Assembly (NCBI RefSeq): GCF_013201625.1
Contig: NZ_CP053839.1
Coordinates: 310,001-374,000, forward strand
DNA: 64,000 bases
DNA from: Aliarcobacter lanthieri
Lineage (GTDB): Bacteria > Campylobacterota > Campylobacteria > Campylobacterales > Arcobacteraceae
Direction: 5' to 3'
Positions within the stretch are counted from its first letter, which is position 1, and every line of letters starts with the position of its first letter. The position numbers and the translations under genes are program-made. A model generated the notes under the pieces. The model had not been told where the DNA came from and did no database searches. It saw only the letters and a list, made by a program, of their open reading frames with translations. Of this stretch, positions 6,668 through 12,679 are shown piece after piece.

Positions 6668-7897
6668 TTATATTAAAATTACTTTTACTCTATTTAAACT
6701 TTTTATATTTGAAAACTCTTCAATAAGTTTTGTTAATTCTAAAACATCTATATTTTTCATTCTAATACAACCAGCACTTTCATTTCTACCTAGAGTTTTT
6801 TCATTTAAAGTTCCATGTATTCTATATGTAGTTTTCCCATCAACTTCATGAGTAAGATTTAACTTTGCAGCACCCATATAATTATATTTATGATTAGCTG
6901 GTACAACATTAGGTAAGATTATACCTTTTTTTGCAAAACTCTTTTTTGTATCTTCTGTTGGATACCAAACTGGATTTAGTGATATTTGAGATATTTTTCC
7001 AATACCTAAAGGTTTTTTAATATCATTTTTACCAGTAGATACAATATAACTTTTGATTTTTTCTTCTTTATCACCGATTTTGGCAAAAACTTCCATAATA
7101 TTTGTTTTAGAATCTACTTTTATTATTAAATTTTCATAGTTATTAAGTGAGTTTTTGTTCTCTTGTTTTAAAGTATTTTTCGGAATGCTTTTTTTCTCAT
7201 AAACAGTTTTTATTTGCTGATTATTTTGAGCATCATATTCTTCCATACTTATATGTAATAGTTCATCTTCATCTTCTGGTGAAATATTATTATCATGTAA
7301 ATTACCAAAATCTACTTCACTTTTTAATTCTAAATTATTTTTTACAATATCTTTTTGTTTATCGTCTTTTTGTGATATTTCAGGTTCTTCACTATAAGGT
7401 AAAAGACCTATAATTTCTAAATTATCAGGAATAGCTGAAACTAAAGGGATAATAGATTCTTGGTTTATTGGATTTGTTGTATTTATTATTTCATCATTAT
7501 TTATTGATATTTCTTCAACTTTATTTTGTTCTTTTATTTCAATTTCTTGAGTAGGTTTAATAACTTCATTCATATCAATAAAAAGTTTTCTTTTATCAAT
7601 TTTTTTTACAATATTTTCATCAATCTCTTTTATATATGGTTTTTGTTCAAGCACATATTTTGAAGCATGTTTTAGAGTAACTTTTGCTATTTCTTTATCA
7701 TCATAAACATTTAAATTTGTAAAGTATTTATTTTGTTGTTTTACAATAAAAACTTCTCCTCTCATATTGTCATAGATTCTTTTTTTACATACTAAAGCAT
7801 ATTCTAAAGTTGAAGTTGCACAAACTGCAATTGTATATTTTTCTTGTGCAAATAAAATTGTTGAGAATAAAAAAAATATAGCTAAAAATTTGTTCAT
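6668..7897 (-). CDS. Secreted L,D-transpeptidase (YkuD domain)
   Basis: 409 residues with an N-terminal signal peptide (MNKFLAIFFLFSTILFAQ), an SPOR-like or adaptor region to about residue 90, an acidic low-complexity linker (about 100-250) and a C-terminal YkuD catalytic domain. The active site is visible: His361 in HGTLNE and Cys377 in RNESAGCIRM. Such enzymes form 3-3 peptidoglycan crosslinks or attach lipoproteins; in Helicobacter and Campylobacter related proteins set cell shape (Csd6/Pgp2 type). Whether this one is a transpeptidase or a carboxypeptidase cannot be decided here. It is divergent from the MotA/ExbB-like gene. Confidence 0.9.
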   Translation of the reverse strand: MNKFLAIFFLFSTILFAQEKYTIAVCATSTLEYALVCKKRIYDNMRGEVFIVKQQNKYFTNLNVYDDKEIAKVTLKHASKYVLEQKPYIKEIDENIVKKIDKRKLFIDMNEVIKPTQEIEIKEQNKVEEISINNDEIINTTNPINQESIIPLVSAIPDNLEIIGLLPYSEEPEISQKDDKQKDIVKNNLELKSEVDFGNLHDNNISPEDEDELLHISMEEYDAQNNQQIKTVYEKKSIPKNTLKQENKNSLNNYENLIIKVDSKTNIMEVFAKIGDKEEKIKSYIVSTGKNDIKKPLGIGKISQISLNPVWYPTEDTKKSFAKKGIILPNVVPANHKYNYMGAAKLNLTHEVDGKTTYRIHGTLNEKTLGRNESAGCIRMKNIDVLELTKLIEEFSNIKSLNRVKVILI

Positions 7898-7979: not shown

Positions 7980-9146
7980 ATGTTTAAAGAAGAAGATTTT
8001 TTAGAATTAAATTCAAGATTTCATACAACTTGTAAGCCTTTTTCAAGAGTATTTACACTTTTTAGTGTTCCAGCAATACTTTTTGCATTGGTAATATTAT
8101 GTTATTTAGGTGTTTTACCATTAAAAGTTGAAATTCATAGTGTTATTTTAATAGGTTTGATATTTTTAATTTACCTATTTTTTATAAGACACAATGCTTA
8201 TTATGTATCTTGTAAATTTAAAACATTATATAGTGAACTTCAAATATCACTACAAGATTATATAAATAACAATTTACTTACTATTGGTGAAACTTCAAAA
8301 GCAAATGGTAGTGTTGATGATTTCTTACAAGATTATACAAGTAATTTAAGAAATAACAATTTTTCAAGTATTGCAAGTGGAATTTTCCCAACTTTAGGTA
8401 TTTTAGGAACATTTATATCTATTGCAATTTCAATGCCTGATTTTACGTCTACAAATACTTTTGCACTTGATGGAGAAATAACAAAACTTTTAAGTGGAGT
8501 TGCAACAGCATTTTATGTTTCAATATATGGGATATTTTTATCTATTTGGTGGATATTTTTTGAAAAATTTGGAATGAGTAGATTTGACCATGATAGATTT
8601 GTTATCAAAGAAAGCACTAAAAACTTCTTTTGGACAAGAATAGATATTGAGTCAATTCATATAAAAAGTAATATTGACAACTTCTCAAGTATGAGTGATA
8701 TATTTAAACAATTAACATCTAGTGATATTTTAGAAAGTATTAATAGTTCTATAAAAAAACGATATGAAGCAGTTGAAGAGATTTTACAAAAAGAGTATAT
8801 TTTATCTTTAAGAATAGATGAAAATATCACAAATTGTGAAAAACTAGCTAGAACTGTTGAGAGTTTAGGACAACAAATAGATAATCAAAATAATATTTTC
8901 TTAGAAACTTCAAAAAGTTTAAATTATAATATTGAAAAGTTAAATTCTCATATGGATAATCTAAGTAGTGAAAATCTAAAAGCAATATATTCAAATATTG
9001 TAAAAAGTATTGAAACTATGAAAAGTGATATGGAAAAAATAGAGTGGAAGTTTGAAGAAGGTTTAAAAGAATCTTTAAGACAAATAGATGAGCAAACTTC
9101 AAATATAGTAAAAGATTTGAGTATCTTTAAAGATTTATCAAAGTAG
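7980..9146 (+). CDS. MotA/TolQ/ExbB-type proton channel subunit with coiled-coil tail
   Basis: 388 residues. Four membrane segments are visible: about 24-46, 52-69, 133-151 and 170-194. The last two carry the channel signature (FPTLGILGTFISIAI and LLSGVATAFYVSIYGIFLS) shared by MotA, ExbB, TolQ and ZorA. Residues from about 240 to the end form a long polar, probably coiled-coil cytoplasmic tail. It should form a pentamer around a dimer of the next protein, making a proton- or ion-driven motor in the inner membrane. It is not the flagellar stator, because MotA lacks this tail, nor an ExbB/TolQ, which are much shorter. It is followed six bases later by its MotB-like partner. Confidence 0.85.
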   Translation: MFKEEDFLELNSRFHTTCKPFSRVFTLFSVPAILFALVILCYLGVLPLKVEIHSVILIGLIFLIYLFFIRHNAYYVSCKFKTLYSELQISLQDYINNNLLTIGETSKANGSVDDFLQDYTSNLRNNNFSSIASGIFPTLGILGTFISIAISMPDFTSTNTFALDGEITKLLSGVATAFYVSIYGIFLSIWWIFFEKFGMSRFDHDRFVIKESTKNFFWTRIDIESIHIKSNIDNFSSMSDIFKQLTSSDILESINSSIKKRYEAVEEILQKEYILSLRIDENITNCEKLARTVESLGQQIDNQNNIFLETSKSLNYNIEKLNSHMDNLSSENLKAIYSNIVKSIETMKSDMEKIEWKFEEGLKESLRQIDEQTSNIVKDLSIFKDLSK

Positions 9147-9152
9147 TACATT

Positions 9153-10151
9153 ATGTATAAAAAAGAAAAAAATCAAGAAGAAAACTTTTGGATATCTTAT
9201 GCTGATTTGATGGCTGGTTTACTTTTTGTATTTATTCTAGTAATTGCTTCAATAGTTATTAAATATATCTATACTCAACATAGTCTTGAAGATAGTGAAG
9301 ATGCTAAATCAAAACTATTTTATGAATTAGCAAAAGCTAAGAATCTTTATCAAGAGAGTCAATCAAAACTGGATGATGCAAATAAAAGAATAATTTTAAG
9401 TTCAAATGAGATAGAAAAATTGAAATCACTATTACTTGAATATGAGTTAACAATAAAAGATGAAAAAGATAAAAATGAGAATTTAAATTTAGCTCTAGGT
9501 GATAGTACAAATCAAATTAGTTTAAAAGATGAAGAACTAAAACTTTTAGCAGATAAACTTTTAGTTCAAACTCAAATCCATCAAAAAATGGTAGAAGATT
9601 TTGATATAGCAAAATTAAAAATCAAAACTTTAACAGGAATAAAATTAAATGTTATAGCGAAACTAAAAGAAAAACTTGGCAACTCTATCAATGTTGATGA
9701 AAAAAGTGGAGCTATAAAGTTTTCTTCAAATATTTTATTTGATCAAAATTCTTATGTTTTAAAAGAGGAATCAAAAAAAGAATTAAGTACAGTTTTAAAA
9801 AATTACCTATCAGTTTTATTTGAAGATAAAGATATATCAAAATATATAGAAAATATTACTATTGAAGGTCATACAAATAGTGATGGTACATATCTATCAA
9901 ATCTTTTATTATCTCAACAAAGAGCAATGAGTGTTATGCAGTTTTTATATGAATCAAATATTGTAGATAAAAAACTTTTAAGCACTTTTGTAAACTCTAG
10001 TGGAAGAAGTTCAGCTGATTTGATTTTAGATAAAAATAACGTTGAAGATAAAGATGCATCAAGAAGAATAGAGATTAAATTTACTATTAAAAATGAAGAA
10101 GCTATAAAAGAGATACAAAACTATTTGGATAAACAAAATGAGAATAAATAG
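9153..10151 (+). CDS. OmpA/MotB-like peptidoglycan-binding motor subunit with long coiled coil
   Basis: 332 residues: a short cytoplasmic N-terminus, one membrane helix (about 16-38) with Asp18 in SYADLMAGLLF, the likely ion-carrying aspartate; a periplasmic coiled coil (about 47-155); and an OmpA-like peptidoglycan-binding domain (about 185-312) with GHTNSDGTY (239-247), the LSQQRAMSV helix and RRIEI (304-308). The architecture equals MotB or ZorB, with an unusually long spacer. Together with the upstream gene it probably forms a cell-wall-anchored ion-driven rotary or force-transmitting complex. Its 3' end overlaps a 46-codon frame. Confidence 0.85.
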   Translation: MYKKEKNQEENFWISYADLMAGLLFVFILVIASIVIKYIYTQHSLEDSEDAKSKLFYELAKAKNLYQESQSKLDDANKRIILSSNEIEKLKSLLLEYELTIKDEKDKNENLNLALGDSTNQISLKDEELKLLADKLLVQTQIHQKMVEDFDIAKLKIKTLTGIKLNVIAKLKEKLGNSINVDEKSGAIKFSSNILFDQNSYVLKEESKKELSTVLKNYLSVLFEDKDISKYIENITIEGHTNSDGTYLSNLLLSQQRAMSVMQFLYESNIVDKKLLSTFVNSSGRSSADLILDKNNVEDKDASRRIEIKFTIKNEEAIKEIQNYLDKQNENK

Positions 10152-10278
10152 TAGAAAACCTTTATATGAGCCTAAGAATCTTCAAGATTTATCAAAACAG
10201 ATAAAAGAAAAAGTAGTGGAAAAACAACTAAATATCTTTCAAAAGATATTTAGGTTTTTATTTAAAAAGAAGAGTTAA
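10138..10278 (+). CDS. Small basic protein of 46 residues after the MotAB-like pair
   Basis: An ATG at 10138, inside the last codons of the OmpA-like gene (14-base overlap), opens a 46-codon frame ending at TAA 10276-10278. The peptide begins MRINSRKPLYEPKNL and ends in a basic, aromatic tail (FRFLFKKKS) that could lie on the membrane face as an amphipathic helix. It fills exactly the space before the convergent dehydrogenase gene, whose stop is one base away. I know no family for it. The tight overlap suggests translational coupling to the motor genes; chance cannot be excluded for so short a frame. Confidence 0.5.
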   Translation: MRINSRKPLYEPKNLQDLSKQIKEKVVEKQLNIFQKIFRFLFKKKS

Positions 10279-11316: not shown

Positions 11317-11538
11317 CTATTTGCTACTTATTTTTATAGCTTTTTTTATAGAACTTAATTTTTGATTTAAGTTTTTTGATTTCTTTTTATCACCTTTTGC
11401 TACTTTTTTTAGCTCAGATTTTAATTTTGCTCTTTTAGTTTTAAGAGTACCTATAAGTTTTTTTACTTTTTTACTATTTTTAGTACTTTTCCCTTTTGAA
11501 ATTTTGTTTAACTCTTTAACTGCTTTTGATGTTTTCAT
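11317..11538 (-). CDS. Small lysine-rich basic protein, unknown function
   Basis: 73 residues when started at the ATG at 11536-11538, which is preceded by AAAGGAC; an upstream in-frame start at 11583 has no better site. About 27 of the 73 residues are lysine, mixed with serine, alanine and leucine, with almost no aromatic residues. No domain is recognised. The composition recalls histone H1-like or other nucleic-acid-compacting proteins, or a ribosome-associated factor, but this is inference from composition only. It is a single-gene unit with its own terminator, so it is likely a real expressed gene. Confidence 0.65.
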   Translation of the reverse strand: MKTSKAVKELNKISKGKSTKNSKKVKKLIGTLKTKRAKLKSELKKVAKGDKKKSKNLNQKLSSIKKAIKISSK

Positions 11539-11701
11539 CTTTTGTCCTTTATAATATTTTTGTTTATAAAAACTTATAAACATACCTTCTTTATGATATT
11601 TTTATTCCTAAATATCGGTGAAGATGGGTCATACTACTCAATACATACTTAAGTATAGGTTATACTTTATTTTTTGTATTAGTTAATATTAAAAAGAATA
11701 A

Positions 11702-12679
11702 CTAATTTCTTTTTTGTCCTGTTTTAGGAGAAGATACAATTTTTTGTAAATCTATACTTAAATTATTGTAAAAAAGTTCTCCATAATTTGTTTCTCTATT
11801 TATAGTTTCATATGCTTGTGTAATAGTATTATTGTATTTTAGTGCTTCGTGAAGTATTTTTAGAATTTTAACAGATTCTAAAAAATTTACATGTGATGGT
11901 GCTTCTATTGGTGAACTATAATATTTGTGCATTCTTTCAACTAAGTTTTTATTTCTTATTTCTATAAATACTGATTCAATAGGAGATTTGAAAAATAGGA
12001 TTTTCTTTTTTACATTTATAGATATATAAGTTGTTTCCATTCCATATATTTTTCTTGAAAATGAGTCGAATAAAAATAGTTTTTTATTATAGTTATTATT
12101 AAAAAGTTCATACATAAGTTCTAAAATTTTCATTTTTTCATCTTTAGTAAAAAAGTTTCCAATACTAGCAAAACAAAAACTTAAAATTGATTTTATTGAA
12201 TACCATTCTGTTGTATCATAATCATATCTTAGCATTTGATCTATTCTTTCTTGTTTTAATTCTTCTATATCAATACTTGTAGAACTTTTGTACACTTTTC
12301 GTACAGCAGAGTCTCTATACATTGGTCCTGGAAATTGTGCTTGAATTACAAATCGTCTATTTTTTTCATGCTCAATTATATATTTTAATCTTCCTTTATA
12401 GTCTTCATCTATTATCCTAACTTCTTTTTGAGGAATTTGAGTAATAGATTTTATAAATTCATCACCACTACATGCATCTTCCCAAATATAATTTGGATAC
12501 CTAAATATTTGACATATTTTATCTTGAATATCTTTGTTTATATCAACTTCAGTTATTTTGTCTATCCACGAAGTTACAGTTCTTCTGTCTTTATTTATCA
12601 TTGATGCAAACTTTGATATACTTAAATTTGAACGATTAAAAATTTCTATAAATTTATCTAATGAAGATTTAAAATTCAT
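11702..12679 (-). CDS. Putative helix-turn-helix regulator divergent from the prp operon
   Basis: 325 residues. Residues about 18-42 look like an XRE/Cro-type helix-turn-helix (NLSISKFASMINKDRRTVTSWI). The remaining 280 residues match nothing I recognise; there is no sigma-54 activator module, no HExxH protease motif and no clear ligand domain. The gene is divergent from prpB with a 173-base shared upstream region holding an inverted repeat, so it is a good candidate to control propionate catabolism. It would then be unlike PrpR or GntR-type regulators of other prp clusters. DNA binding is moderately sure; the target is inferred. Confidence 0.6.
   Translation of the reverse strand: MNFKSSLDKFIEIFNRSNLSISKFASMINKDRRTVTSWIDKITEVDINKDIQDKICQIFRYPNYIWEDACSGDEFIKSITQIPQKEVRIIDEDYKGRLKYIIEHEKNRRFVIQAQFPGPMYRDSAVRKVYKSSTSIDIEELKQERIDQMLRYDYDTTEWYSIKSILSFCFASIGNFFTKDEKMKILELMYELFNNNYNKKLFLFDSFSRKIYGMETTYISINVKKKILFFKSPIESVFIEIRNKNLVERMHKYYSSPIEAPSHVNFLESVKILKILHEALKYNNTITQAYETINRETNYGELFYNNLSIDLQKIVSSPKTGQKRN

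Follow-up and report, generated by a model that had tools for sequence, protein, structure and literature searches.

A ZorAB-type gene pair with a heptad-spaced shaft: a candidate housekeeping motor in Aliarcobacter lanthieri and other Campylobacterota

The best described motors close to the locus reported here are the ZorA-ZorB (ZorAB) pairs of Zorya I and II. In the solved complexes (8vvn, 8vvi and 8qyd), the ZorA core carries a pair of helices and a beta-hairpin in the stretch from TM2 to TM3, with a long helical tail behind it, ZorB has a single transmembrane segment (TM) with a channel aspartate and an OmpA domain, and the two genes are adjacent. According to the available part of PMC11890865, the ZorA tail is required in Zorya, ion flow and wall binding are also important, and ZorAB directs ZorE to the membrane. 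PMC12505986 singles out two helices with a beta-sheet, which the legend of its Figure 4 places in the cytoplasmic domain, as a feature that only Zorya-type proteins have; in the available text of that paper, ZorAB was omitted from the phylogeny, and Campylobacter and Arcobacter are absent. The architectural features listed above recur, in sequence or in predicted models, in a gene pair, A-B, that we describe here from Aliarcobacter lanthieri.

The window analyzed comprises 64,000 nucleotides (bases 310001-374000) of the 2.28 Mb genome, which is a single contig. Positions below are those of the window, and the relevant features are as follows:

6668-7897, minus strand: gene for a protein of YkuD (L,D-transpeptidase) fold by Pfam; divergent neighbour, outside the conserved unit
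7980-9146, plus strand: A subunit, 388 aa; Pfam MotA_ExbB match and predicted model
9153-10151, plus strand: B subunit, 332 aa; Pfam OmpA match and predicted model, with a TM holding the invariant aspartate D18 (FWISYADLMAGLLFVF), a periplasmic helix (residues 49-175) and an OmpA-type domain (residues ~188-312)
10138-10278, plus strand: micro-ORF C, 46 aa; overlaps the 3' end of B

A, B and C run in the same direction and abut or overlap. The initial annotation had described a MotA/MotB-like pair with channel and OmpA features, and this was borne out: the ORFs are as it gave them, and both Pfam matches lie above cut-off (MotA_ExbB on A, 30 bits against 22.9; OmpA on B, 46.4 bits against 27.2), with MotB_plug below its cut-off on B. 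It was also right that the YkuD gene is divergent and that the neighbours hold no nuclease or helicase, none being found by Pfam in A, B, the micro-ORF or seven neighbours (ten proteins in all); TolA/TonB, TolB and Pal were likewise not found by Pfam among the seven neighbours scanned.

AlphaFold models were computed from 74 sequences each for A and B (pTM: 0.51 each; mean pLDDT: 78.3 for A and 84.7 for B). The model of A has helices at residues 20-43, 52-69, 126-150 and 160-212, in which TM1 to TM3 were placed by eye in the first three and TM4 from about residue 160; between TM2 and TM3 are two predicted helices (73-82 and 84-97) and a beta-hairpin (strands 99-102 and 105-108). The long cytoplasmic tail reported earlier is predicted to be helical to the C terminus (helices 220-245, 248-325 and 330-387, with low confidence towards the end). 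In B, a helix at 9-42 holds the TM and is followed by a single 127-residue helix (49-175) and the OmpA domain, so that the previous estimate of a ~110-residue periplasmic coiled coil was about right or low. T144 and S181 of A and D18 of B, which would supply the Ser/Thr and the channel aspartate that face each other in a ZorAB-type motor, are invariant in 74/74 sequences.

Comparison with ZorAB and other ion-driven motors

The best NCBIfam and PADLOC matches were ZorA for A and ZorB for B. Both proteins fell well short of the NCBIfam cut-offs for ZorA and ZorB (at best 33 against 100 bits for A and 84 against 400 bits for B), and the PADLOC ZorB1 model PDLC00609 scored 195 bits on B. In a PDB profile search with profiles made from 17 relatives, ZorA ranked first for A (8vvn at 1.9e-10, then 8vvi and 8qyk) and ZorB first for B (8qyd at 1.9e-25, then 8vvn and 8vvi). 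Foldseek placed ZorA in all of the top 6 positions for A (E-values: 3.6e-5 to 2.0e-4; query-length TM-score: up to 0.35) and ZorB in all of the top 5 for B (best E-value: 8.0e-12). VIA-align Z-scores for A were 10.2-11.0 with ZorA, 9.2 with TolQ, 8.7 with a designed helical channel and at most 6.8 with MotA/PomA, in a range (Z below ~13) in which matches between helical bundles may reflect a common arrangement only; given the score of the designed channel, the ZorA margin is real but small. The pair is thus recognisably of ZorAB type, outside the subfamily named by NCBIfam, and its nearest solved relatives are ZorA and ZorB and not flagellar, Tol or Exb motors. The initial annotation had weighed its proposal of an undescribed machine against placement in a known clade of defined function; the nearest relative is clear, but it brings no defined function with it.

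A tree was built from the A core together with B, with 33 rows for the window family. With the MotAB row left out, a branch supported at 98/96 parted the window family from the rows of Zorya and of the Helicobacter-type pair. With a single MotAB outgroup (branch length 10), whose point of attachment the tree did not settle, the family no longer formed one side of a branch (it did so in 20% of the bootstrap replicates).

No effector gene (ZorC/ZorD, ZorE or ZorF/ZorG) was found by Pfam on the seven neighbours, and the genome itself gave no ZorE match at 1e-15 and no ZorD match at 1e-40. True Zorya loci do occur among the phylum relatives: one (L198) holds ZorC and ZorD, and four (L191, L192, L193 and L195) hold ZorE. 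ZorE was found in 6/298 genomes (E-values up to 1e-15) and ZorD in 12/298 (E-values up to 1e-40), of which only G082 was counted as Zorya I, because the other ZorD matches were partial and the profile also responded in 7 of 14 control genomes. In two genomes (G172 and G204), a member of the window family occurs alongside a distinct Zorya II locus (ZorA, ZorB and ZorE). With no effector found at the locus and neither ZorE nor ZorD in the genome, A-B is not Zorya as defined. The earlier judgement that this is not a recognisable Zorya system therefore stands as regards effectors and falls as regards the pair, whose PDB sequence and fold matches are recognisably those of ZorAB. Unlike ZorAB of Zorya I and II, A-B occurs here with no ZorC, ZorD or ZorE found (ZorE and ZorD profiles genome-wide, Pfam at the neighbours), is core in its genus and not accessory, branches apart as described above, and has the extra small gene C in many lineages.

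With MotAB/PomAB the pair shares the channel logic and the OmpA wall anchor, but the fold of A is closer to ZorA and the pair is kept in genomes without FliM; a flagellar origin was rejected on these two grounds. With TolQR/ExbBD it shares the ring fold of the A type, but its B has an OmpA domain. Four further MotA/ExbB-type genes were found in the genome, in loci which, from sequence and gene order, we take to be a MotA-MotB pair, a TolQ-TolR-TolA-TolB-Pal set and two ExbBD sets. A Tol or Exb identity was rejected in view of these own copies elsewhere, and since the other four motor genes are accounted for, A-B is a fifth, separate motor, in agreement with the first reading that it was neither flagellar nor Tol/Exb.

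A second ZorAB-like pair was noticed at L054:7749-12223 and at L180, L181, L183, L184 and L186, where A is 693-891 aa long and the order is exbB-exbD-small protein (p59)-A-B; genomes with this order we take to be Helicobacter-type. None of them is among the 6 ZorE matches. This pair is also of ZorAB type and in L054 adjoins peb4 and fba, as A-B does in Campylobacter, but it has its own place in the tree on the Zorya II side, a short periplasmic linker, an A of 603-1170 aa and a frequent link to exbB/exbD. It is possibly another non-defence ZorAB motor.

Length and phase of the B shaft

Shaft length was taken as the residue count from D18 to G186, the latter lying just before the OmpA domain. 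Across 74 aligned B proteins this count takes 23 values from 154 to 336, a 2.2-fold variation, and is 0 mod 7 in 69/74 and 4 mod 7 in the remaining 5/74, the 7n+4 phase being the step expected from an eleven-residue insert. No insertions or deletions were found among the 74 in D18-38 or I157-G186. On the tree, at least 42 length changes are needed against only 5 phase changes. A wider set of 113 family proteins, of which 109 were measurable and 98 distinct, was counted by anchor alignment; a motif-based recount (87/105 in the main phase) was distorted by false motif matches inside the coil and was set aside. Among the 98, 90 were at phase 0, 5 at phase 4, 2 at phase 3 (including L078, part of which is masked) and 1 at phase 6 (L053, with one residue apparently missing outside the coil), so that the heptad rule is broken in 8/98. 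Within the window, the best heptad period of the B helix was 3.51, equally strong in 13 of 500 shuffles.

The tail of A served as a control, useful but imperfect because the C terminus is not a domain border. From W218 to the C terminus it has 33 lengths in all seven phases (commonest phase: 29/74), and when measured to an internal motif (42/74 rows) it falls in five phases; unlike the B shaft, the tail follows no heptad length rule.

As the distance from D18 to the OmpA domain stays a multiple of seven while its length varies, B is probably a single rigid, phase-locked coiled-coil shaft. The phase rule supports an unbroken coiled coil and does not in itself prove torque. In light-regulated cyclases, linker lengths are heptad-spaced and govern the coupling of the joined domains (PMC9587094, available part), and with this precedent we read the conserved phase as mechanical coupling.

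Third gene, neighbourhood and distribution

C carries the motif Y-x-P-x-x-L followed by a basic, aromatic C-terminal segment. A pattern count (aromatic/aliphatic-x-P-x-x-L, with a looser form also accepted) found a C-like short ORF behind B in 54 of 98 distinct, uncut loci, and since L074 and L089 read H-D-P-K-K-L and were missed by the pattern, the number is at least 56/98; the micro-ORF had been worth flagging. A model built from 18 near relatives only was run against 5,377 short ORFs of distant loci (a set with a few duplicates of one contig, e.g. L038 and L094), and the ORF at the B stop took the top 6 of 6 and 19 of the top 23 places. Non-synonymous change was lower than synonymous change in 186/190 pairs of 20 sequences, the pairs being non-independent and L074 having been dropped by the pattern. 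By these sequence comparisons, C is a real third gene.

A whole-genome search for C in 24 genomes gave E-values < 1e-7 in 6, every one at A-B, with matches away from A-B at 8e-4 or worse only; one such match, in G069, was out of frame within a large ORF and was taken as chance. No convincing C was found in Campylobacter-family genomes or G079 by this search, whose sensitivity is limited: a C-like ORF in G065 scored an E-value of 0.82, and those in G075 and G084 were not recovered. The blanks in Campylobacter are therefore weak evidence of absence. Directly behind B, no C was seen in Campylobacter, most Sulfurospirillum-type loci and others, and C thus cannot be essential to the basic mechanism. 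Amphipathicity of the C-terminal segment is suggestive only (six sequences; shuffles scoring as high: 79, 111, 50, 36, 783 and 0 of 2000), and a membrane-binding helix there is a guess. In a group labelled Sulfurospirillum or Sulfurimonas (L108, L110, L113, L117, L119 and L120), a different 53-aa ORF with a similarly basic, aromatic C terminus starts 44 bases before the B stop; it may be either a diverged C or an unrelated replacement.

As a stand-alone motor pair conserved together, A-B matched the earlier expectation. Both genes lie on the same strand in 102/102 loci with distinct B in which both ORFs were found, and are at most 40 bases apart or overlapping in 101/102, which is more than chance. 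Neighbour families (proteins of at least 60 aa) cluster within clades only, namely peb4-fba in Campylobacter and YkuD in the genus; a conserved neighbour as a functional clue was rejected, as only A and B are widely common to the loci. The YkuD neighbourhood is present in 18/19 genus loci examined and in 0/21 loci outside the genus set (L036-L055 and L074), and is a genus-level neighbourhood only; it therefore gives little support to the cell-wall action for which the initial annotation had cited it. For a wall anchor, the OmpA domain and the rigid shaft make the stronger case. In the nearest genome, identity is 94% for A and B, 92% for three other neighbours and 75% for YkuD. Ranked by A, Aliarcobacter vitoriensis comes first of the named organisms (94% identity, among the best 80 of 270 relatives, from which near-identical records are possibly omitted).

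Two further ORFs of the window were noted. At 11702-12679 (minus strand) is a 325-aa protein with no family above cut-off and a weak MarR match, adjoining prpB/prpC/acnD/prpF-like genes, of which it is perhaps the regulator; it is 84-90% conserved where present in the genus loci. The ORF at 11317-11583 (minus strand) encodes a lysine-rich product of 88 aa that matches no Pfam family above cut-off.

With a threshold of E < 1e-30, which leaves out six weaker matches (E-values of 6e-7 to 1e-3), A was found in 30/31 genus genomes (the one miss being 87% complete), in 7/30 other genomes of the family and in 12/39 others of the order; within one family its occurrence is patchy from genus to genus. 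A profile search at 1e-10 found 194/397 genomes of the phylum (Campylobacterota), or 193 after removal of the true Zorya I of G082, and the pair is single-copy in these carriers except G403 (two). A-B is thus core in the genus and widespread in Campylobacterota, where ZorE is rare (6/298). Named carriers among the best 80 of 270 relatives are Aliarcobacter, Poseidonibacter, Sulfurospirillum, Sulfurimonas and Campylobacter including C. jejuni, many of the named carriers being metagenome assemblies. FliM was missing from 54/397 genomes, and A-B is present in 38 of these 54 (by subtraction, both being present in 155; the two counts come from the same 397-genome draw as far as identifiers show), so the motor does not depend on a flagellum. 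Plasmid or phage carriage was rejected, as tblastn of A gave no match in 72,556 plasmid and 50,697 phage records.

In the Campylobacter loci examined, the usual order is peb4-fba-A-B-deaminase-like gene, which we take to be Cj0596-Cj0600, A-B being probably Cj0598-Cj0599 in C. jejuni. In the A. lanthieri genome, the place that A-B occupies in Campylobacter, from peb4-fba to the deaminase-like gene (L203:355-6579), is taken by an ExbBD pair in the opposite orientation. In the available parts of the two papers, cj0598 is given as hypothetical (PMC5841378) and Cj0599 is named only within a protein list (PMC2672935). Literature searches on Cj0598, Cj0599, Cj0600 and three CJJ81176 tags brought up passing mentions only, and in searches on ZorAB and motors no title or abstract opening was about a stand-alone ZorAB.

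Proposed mechanism and alternatives

Our main reading, to which we give a probability of roughly 55%, is that A-B is a housekeeping ZorAB-type 5:2 ion-driven rotary motor, anchored to the wall and not serving defence. Its stoichiometry, ion, rotation and output side are taken over from the homologues. By analogy with solved ZorAB, ions would pass D18 of a B dimer enclosed by a ring of five A subunits, and this flow would drive rotation between ring and shaft. As judged from the model together with the heptad rule, the B dimer would form one unbroken parallel coiled coil, ~19 nm long in this species, which would fix the OmpA domains to peptidoglycan, with wall binding as in the homologues. If the shaft is held in this way, it would be the A ring, together with its helical tail, that turns in the cytoplasm, the tail being the putative working end. 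More speculatively, C might join as an adaptor in many lineages, perhaps holding a partner at the membrane through its basic C terminus.

Because a stiff shaft would tie B to the wall, movement would most naturally fall to the A ring and tail, and cytoplasmic output is favoured, with periplasmic output as the main rival. For the latter, the tail of A or C would keep A in place, and the B shaft would turn or pump on peptidoglycan or the outer membrane in the manner of Tol-Pal. A phase-locked coil would pass torque outwards as well as anchor, the strict constraint on the shaft has no counterpart on the tail, and A-B is kept in lineages without FliM. Yet B has an OmpA domain at its end, as do the B subunits that serve as wall anchors in other motors, and the job would already be taken by the presumed TolQ-TolR-TolA-TolB-Pal set; moreover, the usual periplasm is narrower than a coil shaft of 336 residues, so the longest shafts would exceed it. 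We consider periplasmic output rather improbable.

Less probable again is a stand-alone Zorya-like anti-phage system, in which the motor itself would be the effector (e.g. by collapse of the ion gradient) or the effectors would be coded elsewhere. The nearest solved relatives, ZorA and ZorB, and the PDLC00609 score of B point that way, but the pair is core in the genus, single-copy and in fixed gene order over the Campylobacter loci examined, it has no effector at the locus and no ZorE or ZorD found in the genome, and it coexists with a separate Zorya II in two genomes. As far as the available part of PMC11890865 goes, deleting each component abolishes Zorya protection, and ZorAB alone is therefore insufficient in that Zorya. 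An accessory or degenerate flagellar stator would account for the MotA/ExbB match, the sub-threshold MotB_plug and the OmpA domain, but is contradicted by the carriers that lack flagella (38/54 FliM-less genomes); with a MotA-MotB pair of the genome's own, and PomA/MotA chains scoring below ZorA and TolQ, we think it highly improbable.

Carrying the housekeeping motor further, we offer a more tentative picture, which we think doubtful as a whole: a core ZorAB-type motor, new to print as far as searched, in which a rigid shaft of clade-specific length and fixed angular phase would couple the channel to the wall while the tail turns, and which would share a housekeeping ancestor with Zorya, where defence would later have added nuclease effectors. 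The heptad-locked shaft makes a direct mechanical prediction, in that an insertion of seven residues should be tolerated and one of three should not. Two C. jejuni genes, of which one is printed as "hypothetical", gain a probable identity from the pair. A-B is kept even without flagella, and it offers a practicable route to learning what a tail of the ZorA type does with no nuclease to trigger. Zorya is usually seen as a defence machine; a regular ZorAB-type pair in Campylobacter and its relatives would imply a cellular job for this type of motor.
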